Virus record (IMG/VR): IMGVR_UViG_3300046170_000157
Location: 1 to 25,991 of that record
Origin: a virus
Strand: one strand, 5' to 3'
DNA: 25,991 nucleotides
Made by a program: the position numbers and the translations under genes. Below, one piece after another: positions 4,746-21,305 of the stretch (its first letter is position 1; each line of letters begins with the position of its first letter). Under the pieces are notes generated by a model that saw only the letters and a list, made by a program, of their open reading frames with translations, ran no database searches and was not told where the DNA came from.

Positions 4746-5550
4746 GAAAACAATAAAAAGAACATCTTACACAAAAAAAGATTTTAATAATGTAATTATA
4801 CCAACTTGGCAAAGATGGAAAAACGAAAAGAATGTAAAAGATTTAGCTGAAGCAGTATCTGAAAACGGACAGCTTCGGGATGTTCTTATATGTATAACTA
4901 AAAACCGAACTAAAATATTAACTGATGGAAACCACTTATGTAGTGCTGTTTTCGATTATCTTAAATACAGAAAGATTAATGTTTTAGAAAAACAAGTTAA
5001 AGACAATGAAGAAGCAAGAGAAACATTTATATCTTTTAACACAAGAGGAAAATCTTTAAAAGTCATTGATTACATTGTTAGCTATGCTGGTAGTGGGAAT
5101 AAAGATTATAAAAGGTTTTTATTAGAGGTTATGAAAAGCCCAAACAACTTAAAGGAAGCTGAGGGTGTTTATGGAAAACTTTTTACTATCCCGTCTTTAA
5201 TTTCTATTTTTTTAGGTTTTACAAACAATGTTAAAAAAGGTGTTTGCAAATTACCTAAAAACCACAATAGACTTTTAGAAATTGTCGAGTATTTGGGGCA
5301 AAATTATTTATATGATGGAAGATTAATAAAGCACTTAAATAAAAATGGTAAAGCTATGAAACTAAATGGCGGAAGTATTATCCCAGTATTTAATAAGATT
5401 AAAAATAATAATAACATAATGTGTATGTCTAATGATGAAATATTAAATTTACTAATTGATTTTACTTTTTACCATTATAATTCAATGCAAAATTGCACTT
5501 TTACTAAAGATGCCATTGACAAAAGTTTTAATGTTTACCTAAAAAGATGA
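4744..5550 (+). CDS. ParB/Srx-fold-like protein (DGN motif), accessory gene
   Basis: 268 residues. The N-terminal third has the shape of a ParB-N/DGQHR-type domain: LAEAVSENGQLRDVLIC (about 34-50), then ILTDGNHLCSAV (58-69), in the position of the DGxHR motif, and FNTRGKSLKVIDYI (about 98-111). The remaining 150 residues are lysine/asparagine-rich and helical, with no domain I recognise. ParB-fold proteins use CTP or ATP or act as nucleases. The arginine after DGNH is replaced by leucine here, so catalysis is uncertain. It overlaps the following mom-like gene by 4 bp. Codon choice (TTT, AAT, GAT, TTA) is distinctly more AT-rich than the flanking genes, suggesting recent acquisition. Confidence 0.65.
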   Translation: MKTIKRTSYTKKDFNNVIIPTWQRWKNEKNVKDLAEAVSENGQLRDVLICITKNRTKILTDGNHLCSAVFDYLKYRKINVLEKQVKDNEEARETFISFNTRGKSLKVIDYIVSYAGSGNKDYKRFLLEVMKSPNNLKEAEGVYGKLFTIPSLISIFLGFTNNVKKGVCKLPKNHNRLLEIVEYLGQNYLYDGRLIKHLNKNGKAMKLNGGSIIPVFNKIKNNNNIMCMSNDEILNLLIDFTFYHYNSMQNCTFTKDAIDKSFNVYLKR

Positions 5551-6278
5551 TGAAGAAACAATACATATACTCAGCACAATCTTCATTATGGGGGGATTCA
5601 GTATGTTTAGGCTTTGGCACAGAAGAATTTTACATAAAAGAAATAGAGAGAAACCTTGCGAATGATTTAATAGTAAAGAATCACTACAGCGGTAAATTTT
5701 ATAATGCTACTTACATACACTTAGGTTTGTTTGTAGATGGAGAAATAAAAGGAGTTTTACAGTATGGCTACGCTATGAATCCAGCAAGCTGCGGAAGTGT
5801 AGTGACTGGAACACAAAAAAACGAGTATTTAGAATTAAACAGAATGTGGATAGCAGACAATGTTGGTAAATACCCAGAGAGTAGAGCAATAAGTTATTCA
5901 CTTAAATATATAAGACGTAAATACCCTAAAATAATGTGGATACAAAGCTTTGCAGATGAAAGATGCGGAGGGTTTGGAATTGTATATCAAGCTTGTTCTT
6001 TTAATTATTTTGGCGAACATAATAGTTTGTTTTGGACTTTAGACGGAAATATATACCATAATAGCTTAATGACAAGAAACCCTAGCCTAAGCAAGTCCGC
6101 TAAATACTTACAAGAAAACAAGAACAGAGCAACGAGCGAAAAATTAAGGCAATTTAGATACATTAAGTTCTTAGACCAAAGGGCAAAAAAAAAATGTACA
6201 TTGAAAGAGCAACCTTATCCAAAACACTATAATGAAACAAAAGAAACATACCCAGATTCAACGAATACTAAGACTTGA
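5547..6278 (+). CDS. mom: Mom-family DNA adenine modification enzyme (GNAT fold)
   Basis: 243 residues. The family resembles phage Mu Mom, which adds a carbamoylmethyl group to the N6 of adenine and protects phage DNA from many restriction enzymes. Supporting segments are VKNHYSGKF (43-51), LGLFVDGEIKGVLQYGYAMNP (about 59-79), ELNRMWIADN (about 92-101), SRAISYSLKYIRRKYP, and WIQSFADERCGGFGIVYQAC, the acetyltransferase-like core of the family. The C-terminal 60 residues are basic and could bind DNA. It starts within the ParB-like gene stop (ATGATG; either ATG is possible). Mu controls mom tightly, but no equivalent control is visible here. The last 47 bp overlap a small downstream ORF. Confidence 0.8.
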   Translation: MMKKQYIYSAQSSLWGDSVCLGFGTEEFYIKEIERNLANDLIVKNHYSGKFYNATYIHLGLFVDGEIKGVLQYGYAMNPASCGSVVTGTQKNEYLELNRMWIADNVGKYPESRAISYSLKYIRRKYPKIMWIQSFADERCGGFGIVYQACSFNYFGEHNSLFWTLDGNIYHNSLMTRNPSLSKSAKYLQENKNRATSEKLRQFRYIKFLDQRAKKKCTLKEQPYPKHYNETKETYPDSTNTKT

Positions 6279-6649: not shown

Positions 6650-6756
6650 TACATAACGAAATATTTTGCACTTACAGACAAGAGCAAGAGAAAATAGACA
6701 AAGCAATACAACTGCTAAAACAAAACGGCTATATTATACACAAGCGAGAGGAATGA
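6643..6756 (+). CDS. Small hypothetical protein, 37 residues
   Basis: ATG 6643 overlaps the end of the DUF5664 gene (ATGGTAA), and the TGA at 6754-6756 overlaps the methyltransferase start (ATGA). The product begins MVIHNEIFCTYRQEQEKIDK and continues AIQLLKQNGYIIHKREE: a helix followed by a strand, as in small helix-turn proteins. Double overlap strongly supports it as real and sets the methyltransferase start. Function unknown. Confidence 0.6.
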   Translation: MVIHNEIFCTYRQEQEKIDKAIQLLKQNGYIIHKREE

Positions 6757-7406
6757 AAATACTTAACTTGTATGCTTGTTTAGGTGGGAATAGGTATAAG
6801 TGGGACGAGGTTACAAAAGTAGAAGTAACAGCGGTTGAGTGGGACGAGGAACTTGCAAGGCTGTATCAGGAACGCTTCCCACAAGACAAAGTAATAGTAG
6901 CAGATGCACACCAATACTTACTAGACCACTACAAAGACTTTGATTTTATCTGGAGTAGTCCACCTTGTCCAACACATAGCAAGGTAAGAATGACACAAAA
7001 GACAACACAATCTTTTACCCCCCTATACCCAGATATGAAATTATATCAAGAAATTATATTTTTAGATAATCATTTTAATGGAAAGTATGTAGTTGAAAAT
7101 GTTACACCATATTATGAGCCTTTAATATCGGCAAAGAAACGAGGTAGGCACTTATATTGGACAAACTTTAACTTGCCAACTTGCTTAAATGAAAGAACAC
7201 AAGGAAAGGGTCTTATGAACGGAGTAACTAACGAAATACCAAAATGGTGTGAATTTCACGATTATGATTTTTATAAATATAAAGGAAAACAAAGGCGAGA
7301 TAAAATAGCAAGGAACTTAGTAGATTATGAAGCTGGTAAGACAATTCTAGAGACAGCGATAGGAATAATAAAAAAACAAAACGTAAAACAAACAGAATTA
7401 TTTTAA
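6753..7406 (+). CDS. C5-cytosine DNA methyltransferase (phage type)
   Basis: 217 residues from ATG 6753; an upstream in-frame ATG at 6666 would add 29 residues lying inside the preceding small gene. SAM-binding motif I is LNLYACLGGNRYKW (4-17). Motif IV is SSPPCPTHSK (68-77), with catalytic C72. Motif VI is VVENV (113-117). The C-terminal QRRDKIARNLV followed by AGKTILE corresponds to motifs IX-X in the compact phage form. The target-recognition domain is very short, as usual for this group. It methylates cytosine C5 in DNA, probably protecting phage DNA from host restriction. The second half (from about 7035) is richer in AT codons than the first, hinting at a mosaic gene. Confidence 0.85.
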   Translation: MKILNLYACLGGNRYKWDEVTKVEVTAVEWDEELARLYQERFPQDKVIVADAHQYLLDHYKDFDFIWSSPPCPTHSKVRMTQKTTQSFTPLYPDMKLYQEIIFLDNHFNGKYVVENVTPYYEPLISAKKRGRHLYWTNFNLPTCLNERTQGKGLMNGVTNEIPKWCEFHDYDFYKYKGKQRRDKIARNLVDYEAGKTILETAIGIIKKQNVKQTELF

Positions 7407-8252: not shown

Positions 8253-9461
8253 TTGATTAAAGTAAAAAAAAAGTATCTGCCTATAATATCAAACGATAGT
8301 AGGTACTACATAGTAAGCGGAGGCAGGGGGTCTGGAAAGTCTTTCTCAATCAATGCGCTTTTAGTGATGCTTACTTACGAGTCCAAACATACAATCCTAT
8401 TTACAAGGTACACTCTAACGAGTGCTTACATTTCAATTATCCCAGAGTTCTTAGACAAGCTGGAACAGTTGCAAATGACACAGGACTTCCACATAACAAA
8501 AGACGAAATAATAAATAAAAAGACTGGCAGCAAAATAATCTTTAGAGGTATAAAGACATCAAGCGGAGACCAGACAGCAAACCTTAAATCCTTGCAAGGT
8601 ATTACTACTTGGGTAGTAGATGAGGCAGAGGAACTAACAGACGAGCAGAAGTTCGACACTATAGACCTAAGTGTAAGACAGCAAGGCAGACAAAACAGAG
8701 TTATTCTAATACTTAACCCTACAACCAAAGAACACTTTATATATAGACGTTTCTTTGAGGACAGAGGGGTACAAGAGGGAAGCAATATAAACAAAGGCAA
8801 TACAACCTACATACACACCACTTACAAGGATAACTTAGAACACCTATCTAAAAGCTACATTGAGCAGATTGAACAAATGAAGCAGAGACGTCCAGAGAAA
8901 TACAAACAACAAATGCTGGGGGCTTGGATGTCAAAGGCGGAAGGGGTTATATTTAACAACTGGACAATAGGGGAGTTCAAAAGATACAGCGTTAGCGTTT
9001 GGGGTCAAGACTACGGCTTTGCAGCAGACCCTTCGACTTTAGTAGAGTGTAACATAAACACCTCAACAAAGACTATTTATTTAAAAGAGTGCTTTTATCT
9101 GCCTAGACTTACAACTTCACAAATAGCAGAGCTGAATACTAAATACGCAAAGGACGGCCTTATAATAGGGGACAGCGCAGAACCTAGACTATTAAGCGAA
9201 ATAAAAGCCAAAGGCTGCAACGTAAAGCCCAGCATAAAAGGACAAGGCAGTGTTACTTATGGGATAAGCCTTTTACAAGACTACGACTTAGTTGTAGACC
9301 CAGCAAGTACAAACCTAATAAAAGAACTCAACAACTACAGATGGCTAGAGCGAAAGTCAAACACTCCTGTAGATAAGTACAACCACTTACTAGATGCAAT
9401 TAGATACGCTGTAGGCTACCAACTACAAAACCCAAATAGAGGTAAGTATATTGTTCACTAA
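8253..9461 (+). CDS. terL: Terminase large subunit
   Basis: 402 residues. The ATPase domain has Walker A GGRGSGKS at 23-30 and Walker B VVDEAEEL at about 121-128. The nuclease domain shows DYGFAADPSTL (about 252-262), GDSAEPRL (about 306-313) and a terminal DAIRYAVGY, giving the acidic metal ligands. This is the PBSX/Terminase_3-like arrangement. It packages DNA into the prohead by ATP hydrolysis and cuts it. The start is TTG at 8253 (a CTG at 8247 is the only alternative) because the first in-frame ATG lies after the Walker A. It lies 2 bp after the small subunit stop. Confidence 0.95.
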   Translation: MIKVKKKYLPIISNDSRYYIVSGGRGSGKSFSINALLVMLTYESKHTILFTRYTLTSAYISIIPEFLDKLEQLQMTQDFHITKDEIINKKTGSKIIFRGIKTSSGDQTANLKSLQGITTWVVDEAEELTDEQKFDTIDLSVRQQGRQNRVILILNPTTKEHFIYRRFFEDRGVQEGSNINKGNTTYIHTTYKDNLEHLSKSYIEQIEQMKQRRPEKYKQQMLGAWMSKAEGVIFNNWTIGEFKRYSVSVWGQDYGFAADPSTLVECNINTSTKTIYLKECFYLPRLTTSQIAELNTKYAKDGLIIGDSAEPRLLSEIKAKGCNVKPSIKGQGSVTYGISLLQDYDLVVDPASTNLIKELNNYRWLERKSNTPVDKYNHLLDAIRYAVGYQLQNPNRGKYIVH

Positions 9462-9476
9462 AATAATTTAAAAACG

Positions 9477-9492
9477 TTTATATATTAGTATG
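9477..9492 (+). promoter_or_regulatory. Late-class motif, copy 2, abutting ATG
   Basis: TTTATATATTAGTATG contains TATATATTAGTA and ends with the ATG of the next gene (9490). Upstream is AATTTAAAAACG. No Shine-Dalgarno is present. If the motif is a -10 box, transcription would start at or inside the start codon, giving a leaderless message. Confidence 0.6.
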
Positions 9493-10146
9493 AAAGTCAA
9501 TCTAAGAATACCAACAAGCCTTAACGAAATAACCCTAGCGCAATACCAAGAGTTTGCAAAGCTAGAAGCAGACCTAGACAAAACCAAAGACACTGCGATA
9601 CAATTAAAGATAGTTGAGATATTTTGTAAAGTGCCAGAGGTAGTTGTAAGAAATATGAAGGCTACAGACATAGCAGAGATATGCGAAATAATTAACACTA
9701 TGTTTGACACCGAACACCAACTAATAAATAGGTTTAGACTCAAAGGGATTGACTACGGCTTTATCCCAGAGCTGGACGATATGTCTTTTGGGGAGTATAT
9801 GGACTTGGATACTTTTATAAGTGATAACGATAATTTACACAGAGCGGTTAACGTACTATTCAGACCAATAGAACACAAGCGAGGGAACAGATACACAATA
9901 AAAGACTACAACCCAGATACAAGCGAAATAGCAAAGGACTTCCCATTAGATGCAGTCTTAGGGGCTATTGTTTTTTTTTACAGTTTAGGCAAGGACTTAT
10001 CACTGGTTATGCTGAACTCTTTGGACAGCAAGAACGAGAAGGCTTTAGCACAGCATCTAATTTCACAGCAAAGTGGGGATGGTTTAACTCACTCTATGCA
10101 ATCGCTCAAGGCGATATTACAAGATTTAAAAATATCACTGAATTAA
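9490..10146 (+). CDS. Tail-assembly-chaperone-like protein, zero-frame product
   Basis: 218 residues. The N-terminal half reads RIPTSLNEITLAQYQEFAKL, then LQLKIVEIFCKVPE and a central DYGFIPELDDMSFGEYMDLDT. The layout resembles conserved Bacteroidetes phage proteins that sit between packaging and tail genes. The role is inferred: a tail-assembly chaperone binding the tape measure, based on position and on a two-frame structure like lambda G/GT. The region 9963-10146 is open in two frames (see next entry). The gene starts at the ATG within late-class motif copy 2. Confidence 0.65.
   Translation: MKVNLRIPTSLNEITLAQYQEFAKLEADLDKTKDTAIQLKIVEIFCKVPEVVVRNMKATDIAEICEIINTMFDTEHQLINRFRLKGIDYGFIPELDDMSFGEYMDLDTFISDNDNLHRAVNVLFRPIEHKRGNRYTIKDYNPDTSEIAKDFPLDAVLGAIVFFYSLGKDLSLVMLNSLDSKNEKALAQHLISQQSGDGLTHSMQSLKAILQDLKISLN
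9971..9979 (+). other. Candidate -1 slippery sequence (T9)
   Basis: Nine T in the zero-frame context GTT TTT TTT TAC, so T_TTT_TTT (9972-9978) satisfies X_XXY_YYZ. Slipping here joins residues 1-163 of the upstream frame to LQF and onward in the -1 frame. No clear stimulatory stem-loop was identified by eye just downstream. Confidence 0.5.
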
Positions 10147-10232
10147 ATATACATCAATGCTTGACCTACTTAGAATACACAAAAGAAAAAAACCAAATAG
10201 AAGCAGCACAAATTAAAAACAAGTTTAAATAA
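9978..10232 (+). CDS. -1 frame extension of the chaperone-like gene
   Basis: Read one base back from the upstream gene, this segment is open without an ATG, passes the zero-frame stop at 10146 and ends at TAA 10230-10232, six bases before the next gene. Its product includes FTAKWGWFNSLYAIAQGDI, then TRFKNITELNIHQCLTYLEY and EAAQIKNKFK, which resembles the downstream frames of other phage tail-chaperone pairs (WGW, GDI, LTYL). With no start codon, expression needs -1 frameshifting. Candidate slippery sites are T_TTT_TTT in the T9 run at 9971-9979 and T_TTA_AAA at 10125-10131, both in the right phase. The WGW part lies upstream of the second site, favouring the first, but both frames look protein-like over the last 90 bp. 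Confidence 0.7.
   Translation, partial: LQFRQGLITGYAELFGQQEREGFSTASNFTAKWGWFNSLYAIAQGDITRFKNITELNIHQCLTYLEYTKEKNQIEAAQIKNKFK
10125..10131 (+). other. Candidate -1 slippery sequence (T_TTA_AAA)
   Basis: The heptamer TTTAAAA lies in frame as GAT TTA AAA ATA, a canonical X_XXY_YYZ slip site five codons before the zero-frame stop. Slipping here would append NITELNIHQCLTYL and the rest to an almost complete zero-frame protein. Confidence 0.45.
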
Positions 10233-10238
10233 AAGTAA

Positions 10239-10709
10239 ATGAGCCAACAAGGGATAAGAGGTTTTTACCAACTTACAGAAACAATAGAAACACAGCTACT
10301 AGCGGATGTTAATGTAAACACCGTTACTACTGGGGACATATACGATATTGACTTATCAAAACAAAGCATCTTCCCTTTGTCCCATATTGTTATAAATTCT
10401 GTAACAACCCAAGAGCAAGTCTTATCCTTTAACATTACTGTAATGGCAATGGATATTGTAGACGAGAGCAAAGAAAAAACAACAGATATATTTAGAGGCA
10501 ACAATAACGAACAAGACGTTTTAAACACTCAACTAGCAGTACTTAATAAACTTATAATGGTACTAAGACGAGGGACACTATATAGCGAGAAATTTCAGCT
10601 TGAAGGAGACCCCACACTTGAGCCTTTCTACGAAAGGTTTGAGAATCGACTTGCTGGGTTTGCTGCCACAATGGACGTAATAATCCACAATGATATTGAT
10701 ATATGTTAG
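10239..10709 (+). CDS. Conserved phage tail-region protein (possible tail terminator)
   Basis: 156 residues. Segments such as DIYDIDLSKQSIFPLSHIVI, LSFNITVMAMDIVDES and DVLNTQLAVLNKLIMVLRRG suggest an alpha/beta protein like tail-terminator or tail-completion subunits, whose strands are followed by a counted helix. The family is familiar from Bacteroidetes phage tail clusters, but its role is not established from sequence. It starts 6 bp after the -1 frame stop and overlaps the next gene by 7 bp. Confidence 0.55.
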   Translation: MSQQGIRGFYQLTETIETQLLADVNVNTVTTGDIYDIDLSKQSIFPLSHIVINSVTTQEQVLSFNITVMAMDIVDESKEKTTDIFRGNNNEQDVLNTQLAVLNKLIMVLRRGTLYSEKFQLEGDPTLEPFYERFENRLAGFAATMDVIIHNDIDIC

Positions 10710-11248
10710 GGGACAAGTTTTTAAGGGACGAGTTAAACAAGTTTGCTAAGTATGTGATACAACAAAGCCGCAGCAACTTAACTAAGGGCAAATCACCCTA
10801 CGGAAGTTTTAACGATACCAAAAAACTTTATAACAGTATGGACTTCAATGTAGGCCAAAAGGGAAGCACAATGTCTCTAGCGTTTAAAATGGAGGACTAT
10901 TGGAAGTTTAAAGACAAGGGTGTTAAAGGCAAGTCCTCAAGCAGTAAGGCACCTAACAGCCCATTTAAGTTTGGAACTGGAAGCGGTCAAAAAGGTGGCC
11001 TCACAAAAAGTATAGACAAATGGGTAAGAAGAAGAGGTATACAATTTAGAGACAAAAAAAGCGGAAGGTTTTTAAGCTACGAGCAAACTGGTTTTATAAT
11101 TACAAGAAGCATATACCAAACAGGAACAAGACCAAGTATGTTTTTTACAAAGCCTTTTGAGGCTGCTTTTAAAAGACTGCCAGACGAATTAGTAGAGGCC
11201 TATTCTATAGGACTAGAAAAACAGATACAAGTAAACATAAACAAATGA
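10703..11248 (+). CDS. Neck/tail-completion protein (HK97 gp10-like)
   Basis: 181 residues, basic. Segments: KFAKYVIQQSRSNLTKGKSP at the N-terminus, YWKFKDKGVKGKSS in the middle, TGFIITRSIYQTGTRPSMFFTK, and a final helix FKRLPDELVEAYSIGLEKQI. The order, an N-terminal helix, a beta region with DKGVKG, and a GxxPSxFFxxPF-like turn before a long helix, fits HK97 gp10-like proteins that join head and tail. It overlaps the next gene by ATGA. Confidence is moderate because the family is highly divergent. Confidence 0.6.
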   Translation: MLGDKFLRDELNKFAKYVIQQSRSNLTKGKSPYGSFNDTKKLYNSMDFNVGQKGSTMSLAFKMEDYWKFKDKGVKGKSSSSKAPNSPFKFGTGSGQKGGLTKSIDKWVRRRGIQFRDKKSGRFLSYEQTGFIITRSIYQTGTRPSMFFTKPFEAAFKRLPDELVEAYSIGLEKQIQVNINK

Positions 11249-14960: not shown

Positions 14961-15101
14961 ATGATAAAACTAATACTAGACTCACTAAAATACGCAAACG
15001 GAGAAACAGAAGCAATCCGAATAGCACAAGGCAAATATAAACTGCCTACAACACTAAAAGAGGGGTTTAAAGCACTAAAACAAGAAATAATATGGCGATA
15101 G
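14961..15101 (+). CDS. Small hypothetical protein before tape measure
   Basis: 46 residues starting at ATG 14961 after TTTACGGAA and ending at TAG 15099-15101, ten bases into the tape measure gene. The product MIKLILDSLKYANGETEAIR, then IAQGKYKLPTTLKEGFKALK, is helical and basic. It fills the only gap between two structural genes and overlaps the next start, so it is probably real. It could be a tail accessory protein; no family recognised. Confidence 0.6.
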   Translation: MIKLILDSLKYANGETEAIRIAQGKYKLPTTLKEGFKALKQEIIWR

Positions 15102-16852
15102 ACAAGACAATCAATATAGACATAAATACTAAAAAAGGTCAAAAGGACGTCAAAGACTTAGAGAAATCAATAGGGGACGTAAACAAAGAAGTCAAAGAGG
15201 TAAGCGAATCTAGCAGCGAATTAACTGGACAGTTAGACAATCTTACGGGCGGCGCAATCTCTAAATTTAAAGGTTTTAGAGGCACTCTGAAAAATGTAAT
15301 AACGAGCTTCAAAAGTCTTAAAGTTGCTATTATAGGGACTGGGATAGGGGCTTTACTTATTGCAGTGGTTGCTTTAGGTCAAGCCTTTACAAGAAGTGAA
15401 GAGGGACAAAACAAGTTTTCTAAGATACTTGGGGTCATTGGCAGTGTTATAGGCAATCTCTTAGACTTACTCGCAGACTTAGGGGAGAATATAATATCTG
15501 TATTTGAAAACCCAAAACAAGCCTTAAAAGACTTTACTAAACTAATTAAAGAAAACCTAATAAACAGGTTTGAGGGTTTGCTAGAGTTATTCCCAAAACT
15601 AGGCAAGGCTATAAGTCTTTTGTTCAAAGGGGAGTTTAGTGCGGCTGGTAAGGTTGCTGCTGATGCAGTAGGTAAAGTTACTCTGGGGGTTGATAGTATT
15701 ACAGACAGTGTAAGCGGTGCAATAGAAAAAGTTAAAGAGTTCGGAGCAGAGGTCGCAAAAGATGCAGCAAACGCAGCAAAGATAGCAGACCTAAGAGCCA
15801 AGGCAGACAGACTAGATAGACAATTAATAGTAGACAGAGCAAAGGCAGACAGAGACCGAGCAACGCTTTTAGAGCAATCCGTAAACAAAGAAAAGTTTAC
15901 AGTACAAGAGAGGATAGCATTTTTGCAAGAAGCAGCAGACCTAGAGGAGAAAATAACAAACCAAGAAATAGAAGCGGCTAGATTAAGACTCCAAGCCCAA
16001 CAAGCCGAGAACGCTTTAGGGAAATCAACAAAAGAGGACAAAGAAAAAGCGGCACAATTAGAGGCAAACCTTATACAACTAGAGACAGCAAGGCTTACAA
16101 AACAAAAAGAGGTTACCTCTCAAATTATAGCTTTTAAGGCAGAGGAAGCCGCAGCACTTGAAGCAATAGAATCTGAAAAAGCAGCTAAGGAAAAAGAAAG
16201 GGCAGACCAAAAAGCAGCAGAGGACAAAGAACGCAAAGACAAAGAAATACAAGAAGAGAAGGACAGACTAGAACAAGAAAAAGAAATAGAAGCACAAAGA
16301 ATAGCAACAAGAGAAAACACTTTTAACACTGCTGTTCAATTAGCTGGCGCAGAGTCAAGACTAGGAAAAGCTATTCTATTAGCAAAGCAATTAATACAAG
16401 CCAAAGAGTTTATCTTAGATGCAAAGGCACAAATACTAAAAGCCAAAAAAGCTGTTGCAGATGCTACCATAAATGCTGCTGAGGCTGGTGTAGAGGTACA
16501 GGGTTCTATTGCCAAGGCCACAAATACAGCCCCTCCCCCTTTAAACATACCTTTTATTATTAGTGCCATAGCTACTGGGGCTGGGGTGCTATCTGCTGTT
16601 CAGTCTGCTGTAAGTGCCACTAAGAGCGCAGCTTCTGCCGTAGGTGGGGGAGGTGGGGGCGGTGCATCAATAAGCACTCCAACGGCACCAGCACCCCCTT
16701 CTTTTAATATTGTTGGGGCTAGTGATACAAACCAACTAGCGGACGCAATAGGAGGACAGACACAACAACCAGTACAAGCGTTTGTTGTAGCAAATGACGT
16801 CACAACTGCCCAGAGCCTAGAAAATAACATAGTCGAAGGGGCTACATTATAA
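15092..16852 (+). CDS. Tail tape measure protein
   Basis: 586 residues. The N-terminus is a charged helix (KKGQKDVKDLEKSIGDVNKE), followed by a hydrophobic segment at 78-97 (VAIIGTGIGALLIAVVALGQ) and a second one around 110-130. A long Ala/Lys/Glu coiled coil runs from about 235 to 420. A Gly-rich stretch near 517-526 precedes a Pro/Thr-rich C-terminus. These are standard features of tape measure proteins, which set tail length and help DNA cross the host membrane. At about 1.5 angstrom per residue it would suit a tail of less than 100 nm (family rule of thumb). It is the last gene before the intergenic region with the putative minus-strand RNA. Confidence 0.85.
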   Translation: MAIDKTINIDINTKKGQKDVKDLEKSIGDVNKEVKEVSESSSELTGQLDNLTGGAISKFKGFRGTLKNVITSFKSLKVAIIGTGIGALLIAVVALGQAFTRSEEGQNKFSKILGVIGSVIGNLLDLLADLGENIISVFENPKQALKDFTKLIKENLINRFEGLLELFPKLGKAISLLFKGEFSAAGKVAADAVGKVTLGVDSITDSVSGAIEKVKEFGAEVAKDAANAAKIADLRAKADRLDRQLIVDRAKADRDRATLLEQSVNKEKFTVQERIAFLQEAADLEEKITNQEIEAARLRLQAQQAENALGKSTKEDKEKAAQLEANLIQLETARLTKQKEVTSQIIAFKAEEAAALEAIESEKAAKEKERADQKAAEDKERKDKEIQEEKDRLEQEKEIEAQRIATRENTFNTAVQLAGAESRLGKAILLAKQLIQAKEFILDAKAQILKAKKAVADATINAAEAGVEVQGSIAKATNTAPPPLNIPFIISAIATGAGVLSAVQSAVSATKSAASAVGGGGGGGASISTPTAPAPPSFNIVGASDTNQLADAIGGQTQQPVQAFVVANDVTTAQSLENNIVEGATL

Positions 16853-20957: not shown

Positions 20958-21305
20958 AAGATTATAACAACAAGCGGCACTAAGGCCTTAAAGATCATAC
21001 CTAGGACTTTTTTTGCTGGAACTATTAATCTAAAACTAACAAACGAAAGTACGGGCGGTGTAGTAAATACAACAGCTACAGCCTCAACAGATAAAAACTA
21101 TATGAGTTTTACTGGTACTTTTGGAACTCTTATAGAAGGAGAGTTTTACAATTTAGAGGTTTTATTGTCTGGGGCTACAATATACAAAGACAAAGTATTT
21201 TGCACAGACCAAACAATAGACCAAACAAACAACAATTACTATTCTGTTAATAGTGGAGAATATAACACAGAGGATAGCTTTGATAACGATTATATAATTT
21301 TATGA
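20955..21305 (+). CDS. Conserved beta-rich virion protein, 116 residues
   Basis: Beta-type throughout: KALKIIPRTFFAGTINLKLT, then a glycine/threonine-rich middle and FYNLEVLLSGATIYKDKVFC, followed by TDQTIDQTNNNYYSVNSGEY. The segment IYxDKxFCTDQ-x-IDQ with YYSVN recurs in flavobacterial phages next to portal and capsid genes, and sometimes in fibre-like proteins. No enzymatic residues. It probably decorates the head or neck. It overlaps the portal gene by 4 bp. Confidence 0.6.
   Translation: MKIITTSGTKALKIIPRTFFAGTINLKLTNESTGGVVNTTATASTDKNYMSFTGTFGTLIEGEFYNLEVLLSGATIYKDKVFCTDQTIDQTNNNYYSVNSGEYNTEDSFDNDYIIL

Follow-up and report, generated by a model that had tools for sequence, protein, structure and literature searches.

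The closest described systems are the tail-chaperone genes of the phages lambda (gpG/gpGT) and HK97 (gp13/14), where a gene of the tail cluster gives a short 0-frame product and a longer -1 fusion. In lambda the slip takes place on the heptamer GGGAAAG, and known tail chaperones share little sequence among themselves. In the annotated SEA-PHAGES cases the 0-frame stop follows the slip site at a mean of 26 nt (PMC10885494), whereas in the family described here the distance is typically ~170 nt (29-260 nt). The genes that use transcriptional slippage on nine As or Ts, such as those of IS elements and Thermus dnaX (PMC1088944), likewise have, within the gene, a run of at least nine As or Ts, and their shifted frame encodes an extension that is conserved.

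The locus described here belongs to the virus record IMGVR_UViG_3300046170_000157, of which the whole stretch of 25,991 nucleotides (the window) was analysed. Compared with lambda and HK97 it has a T9 tract, stands directly after terL and gave no match in sequence or fold to either, while it differs from the IS elements and Thermus dnaX in being a phage tail-cluster gene for which slippage is proposed from sequence. An earlier note on this DNA, whose coordinates match the sequence exactly, had pointed to a probable programmed -1 shift in this gene. The features are as follows.

8253-9461, + strand: terminase large subunit gene (terL), the conserved upstream neighbour (33 of 38 representative loci)
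9490-10146, + strand: gene read in the 0 frame, 218 aa, made up of an N-terminal domain and a 0-frame tail, TAA stop at 10144-10146; homologues found, modelled with AlphaFold
9971-9979, + strand: putative T9 slip tract, GTT TTT TTT TAC; at least nine Ts in all 335 homologous loci
9972-9978, + strand: in-phase heptamer T_TTT_TTT, the minimal site for a ribosomal slip, from the sequence
9972-10232, + strand: -1-frame segment predicted to be read once the slip has occurred (FFLQFRQGL...IKNKFK; 86 codons, then a stop); the fusion would have 247 aa
9978-10143, + strand: dual-coding stretch, with purifying selection on both frames
9986-9988, + strand: TAG in the third frame, at which reading of a transcript short of one T would stop, giving a product of ~165 aa
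10125-10131, + strand: T_TTA_AAA, a rejected slip site
10239-10709, + strand: phrog_30964 neighbour with no assigned function, conserved downstream (34 of 38 loci)
10703-11248, + strand: second downstream neighbour (32 of 38 loci), whose homologue in Nonlabens phage has a match to phrog_5 (tail completion or Neck1)
15092-16852, + strand: gene for a tape-measure-like protein (phrog_20660, E 2.6e-7; phrog_58, E 2.2e-5)

Comparison of the homologues makes it highly probable that two products, a protein of 218 aa and a fusion of 247 aa, are encoded by way of the T9 tract, and we infer from the same comparison that both are made. One gene would thereby give two main proteins at a set ratio, with the majority of copies being the 218-aa 0-frame product and a minority slipping by one nucleotide at T9 into the -1 frame to give the 247-aa fusion. 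Between 9852 and 10232 the -1 frame is open and has no ATG, exactly as the earlier note had it, and 3' of T9 its only start-like codon is a TTG at 10161. The last 84 residues of the fusion are distinct from the 218-aa product, the two phenylalanines at the tract being common to both. In the AlphaFold models the N-terminal domain is predicted confidently (pLDDT ~85) and the T9 codons fall within a long helix that is continued by both products. The tails are of low confidence, and in the fusion model the -1 tail is weak past residue 170 (pLDDT ~42-67). A stop in the +1 frame lies within three codons of the tract in 330 of the 335 loci; this may be a by-product of the Leu-Gly and Phe-Arg codons in the other two frames.

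A T9 run would be expected by chance 0.21 times across the coding sequence of the window. In a first set of 78 close relatives from IMG/VR, those with enough sequence to be judged have both frames open and conserved between T9 and the 0-frame stop, and the tract is unaltered, the sole exception being one contig (L071) with ten Ts. Scans with divergent queries enlarged the set to 335 loci, with 256 distinct contexts and 39 lineages of less than 62% identity. With L071 excluded, the tract has nine Ts in 281 of these loci, ten in 52 and twelve in two, and never seven or eight. It is kept in 21 codon contexts, including the compensated registers GCT TTT TTT TTC and TTT TTT TTT CTG; where GCT precedes the Phe codons, or CTG follows them, an extra Phe codon supplies the missing Ts. 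Most searches used FFY or FFL peptides, which constrain the amino acids and leave the codons free. A search with the downstream motif only gave 73 new loci, all 73 of them with at least nine Ts, and in a collection-wide pattern scan family members made up, among the matches listed, 0 of 80 sites of the T8 form and 77 of 79 of the T9 form. Homologues, on which the earlier note had staked its proposal, keep the -1 frame: 3' of the tract it is conserved as FFLxFRxRL..YxELFG..F..KWGWYxSIYALAxGDI.. and the position of the 0-frame stop varies. In four relatives (L064, L065, L067 and L068) a -1-frame stop lies just 5' of the run, so that entry into this frame must be at the T run.

True homologues are found in the cultured Nonlabens phages P12024S and P12024L, whose gp38/gp39 show ~30% identity, the same T9 and a conserved -1 tail. 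There they are annotated as two hypothetical genes and the 0-frame stop comes 83 nt after the tract; it is very likely from the sequence that gp38 and gp39 (L080:2501-3195, L081:2501-3195) are one frameshifted gene. A first scan of genome contigs gave no confirmed relative, and a second with the -1 tail as query gave seven in Bacteroidota genomes and MAGs. As to hosts, these Bacteroidota genomes and MAGs include Winogradskyella, Flavobacterium and the Galbibacter pacificus isolate CAA-3, and relatives occur in the cultured Nonlabens phages besides. Weak profile similarity was seen to proteins of Duneviridae/Helgolandviridae (Flavobacterium phage FPSV-F7, Cellulophaga phage Ingeline and Polaribacter phage Leef_1), which differ in being a single unshifted ORF of 259-301 aa, and this homology is tentative. 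Flavobacterium phage 6H has weak fold similarity to the family. Its gp10 (L349:10352-10927) has 191 aa, where FPSV-F7, laban6-1 and Ingeline have a continuous ORF of 293-301 aa. A frameshift in 6H gp10 on T_TTT_TTC was considered and rejected, as the -1 frame hits a TAG at once and the relatives have one continuous ORF; gp10 is more likely to be truncated, and the 6H-related group seems to need no frameshift. The open-access literature that was searched gave no report of the family or of a tail-chaperone shift on a T run.

The earlier note had also suggested that the two frames might both be coding over about 90 bp. Substitution rates bear out the dual coding and give it a greater length, with both frames under purifying selection over ~165 nt, or ~55 codons. 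Column entropy peaks at codon position 3 of the 0 frame 5' of T9 and at position 3 of the -1 frame 3' of the 0-frame stop, while in between it is suppressed at position 3 of both frames. Across 48 sister pairs, changes silent in the -1 frame only occur at a rate of 0.092 within the overlap, compared with 0.233 downstream, and those silent in the 0 frame only at 0.065, compared with 0.289 upstream; doubly silent changes are still frequent in the overlap (0.50, from few sites). When the -1 protein was fixed and the synonymous codons were randomised, a stop-free 0 frame was left in 0.3% of draws per lineage, and with the 0-frame protein fixed a stop-free -1 frame was left in 1.2%. Both frames are open in 24 of 24 lineages of less than 85% identity. 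Constraint on the 0 frame is lowest in the middle third of the overlap. Its stop comes only 29 nt after the tract in L177 and 56 nt after it in L084, besides the Nonlabens phages, and the 0-frame tail is not indispensable everywhere. So long a dual-coding stretch offers a clean natural case for the study of overlapping selection. The programmed shift that had been proposed gains support from the conserved T9, the conserved -1 frame and the selection on two frames. The frameshift reading is largely right, though the slip site and the likely mechanism depart from what was first supposed, and the T9 frameshift is a real and widespread variant of the known short and long architecture.

Two in-phase slippery sequences had been put forward, T9 at 9971-9979 and T_TTA_AAA at 10125-10131, and both exist in the window, with T9 then proving invariant across the 335 loci. 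A shift at T_TTA_AAA, near the 0-frame stop, would use a canonical heptamer, but most relatives have TTTGAAA, TTTGAAC or TTTGAAT in its place and conservation of the -1 frame begins at T9, ~50 codons 5' of it; this site was refuted by conservation, and a shift there is extremely improbable. We give as little credence to the view that the two frames are separate genes or that T9 arose by faulty sequencing or assembly within a gene of a single frame. Although gp38 and gp39 are annotated apart in the Nonlabens phages, the -1 gene there is conserved upstream of its ATG as far as the T run, and in 164 of the 335 loci, about half, the -1 frame has no ATG after the tract, so that a separate gene with its own start was rejected. 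An error might be read from L071:1746-2489, where the T10 tract reads straight through and the 247-aa fusion is encoded in a single frame, but T9 recurs in hundreds of contigs (281 loci, from many metagenomes, plus the two cultured phages) and selection acts on both frames, and sequencing error was rejected too. The T10 of L071 may stem from misassembly, or it may be a natural variant, which would make mainly the fusion.

As to how the slip occurs, RNA polymerase slippage at T9 would yield U10 transcripts encoding the fusion, and on balance we lean towards this as the cause. A conventional -1 shift of the ribosome on T_TTT_TTT, in which tandem Phe-tRNAs would re-pair with the U run in the manner of lambda G/GT and HK97, could give the same two products and is a serious possibility that falls short of being probable; the small rest of the probability goes to both mechanisms together or to another. 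Any T9 contains an in-phase T_TTT_TTT, so a ribosome could slip there, and this heptamer, of the form X_XXY_YYZ, is indeed conserved in phase at every one of the 335 loci. UUN codons and heptamers made only of pyrimidines shift with comparative ease in E. coli (PMC4066793), and the reviewed tail-chaperone frameshifts are described as ribosomal (PMC5009743). Against a ribosomal slip, neither a conserved stem-loop nor a Shine-Dalgarno-like stimulator was found in the 39 lineages: for folds without pseudoknots, the 90 nt that follow the tract are no more stable than shuffled sequences (mean z -0.04; +0.12 for a 57-nt window), and a Shine-Dalgarno-like motif lies upstream in 3 of the 39 lineages against 15% of control windows, which makes it rarer and not enriched. 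Frameshift stimulators are common but not obligatory. Flavobacterial ribosomes seldom use Shine-Dalgarno-like motifs in initiation, and prfB frameshifting uses one (PMC8710568). Moreover, the doubly silent sites of the overlap vary freely, and so give no sign of a conserved RNA element, and the run is never trimmed to seven or eight Ts though the heptamer would survive.

Transcriptional slippage calls for an uninterrupted run of ~9 or more As or Ts, which is present in 335 of 335 loci. In many bacterial genomes, selection against runs prone to slippage is seen at a length of nine As or Ts (PMC1088944). On T7/T8, E. coli RNA polymerase gave 5-10% insertion rescue (PMC6260861), a range that would be useful for a minority product. 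Polymerase slippage is slightly favoured over the ribosome because there is no conserved stimulator, the run never falls below nine Ts and, among the sites listed, the T8 and T9 forms divide so sharply. The length of the run is only suggestive of it, since any T9 includes the ribosomal heptamer and the Ts on either side of it may result from hydrophobic residues encoded in the two frames. The fuller picture, in which a widespread flavobacterial phage group sets its tail-chaperone ratio by polymerase slippage on T9-T12, makes up to three products (~165, 218 and 247 aa) and keeps a long dual-coding stretch, is tentative and has a little less than an even chance of being right.

The tail-cluster context that had been suggested for the gene is upheld by the conserved synteny. 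A tail-chaperone-like role is likely, in which the N-terminal domain common to both products would bind the tape measure protein and the tail encoded in the -1 frame would recruit the tail tube protein, as in lambda G/GT. This assignment rests on architecture and neighbourhood and not on homology, since there is no solved relative and only one weak match to an annotated chaperone. As in G/GT-type genes, a short product and a -1 fusion with a common N-terminus are predicted. The gene is not immediately upstream of the tape measure; terL is directly upstream of it and four genes lie between it and the gene at 15092, so we describe it as working like G/GT and do not file it as a member. It is rather unlikely, but far from negligible, that the frameshift is real and the protein is some other tail or neck assembly factor. 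Such a reading would fit the position of the gene directly after terL and ~5 kb before the tape-measure-like gene, and also the lack of similarity to chaperone families: hhalign, PHROGs and PDB profile comparisons gave no similarity to lambda G/T or HK97 gp13, a PDB structure search gave no match at E ≤ 0.001, and PDB profile, Foldseek and VIA-align comparisons gave no informative chaperone match. In BFVD the sole fold match to a protein annotated as a tail assembly chaperone is weak (E 0.17), the other predicted viral homologues being without names. On the other hand, a short and long pair that arises by a -1 shift typifies tail chaperones, most lineages have a tail completion gene two genes further on, and some family members match phrog_166, a tail protein (best E 2.9e-4). 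A link through phrog_166 to T4 gp26/gp51 was considered and dropped, as these match phrog_150 instead.

The -1 half is cut off or omitted by gene callers and family databases, examples being Nonlabens gp38/gp39 and the separate PHROGs 32199 and 38404. Mis-annotation of this locus is therefore likely in many phages of marine and fresh water. Should polymerase slippage set the ratio, one of the classic cases of ribosomal recoding would gain a transcriptional counterpart, and this reading is open to testing in cultured phage-host pairs.

The gene order of the window is unusual between 8253 and 23119, with the tail module directly after terL and the head protease (16977) and the portal, encoded at 21302, 3' of the tape-measure-like gene. 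An A9 run a few codons into terL (8264-8272) is possibly slippage-prone. A Mom-like DNA modification gene (5547-6278; PF25680, E 2.1e-69) lies near a C5 cytosine methyltransferase-like gene (6666-7406), and an A10 run (6185-6194) lies towards the end of the Mom-like gene.
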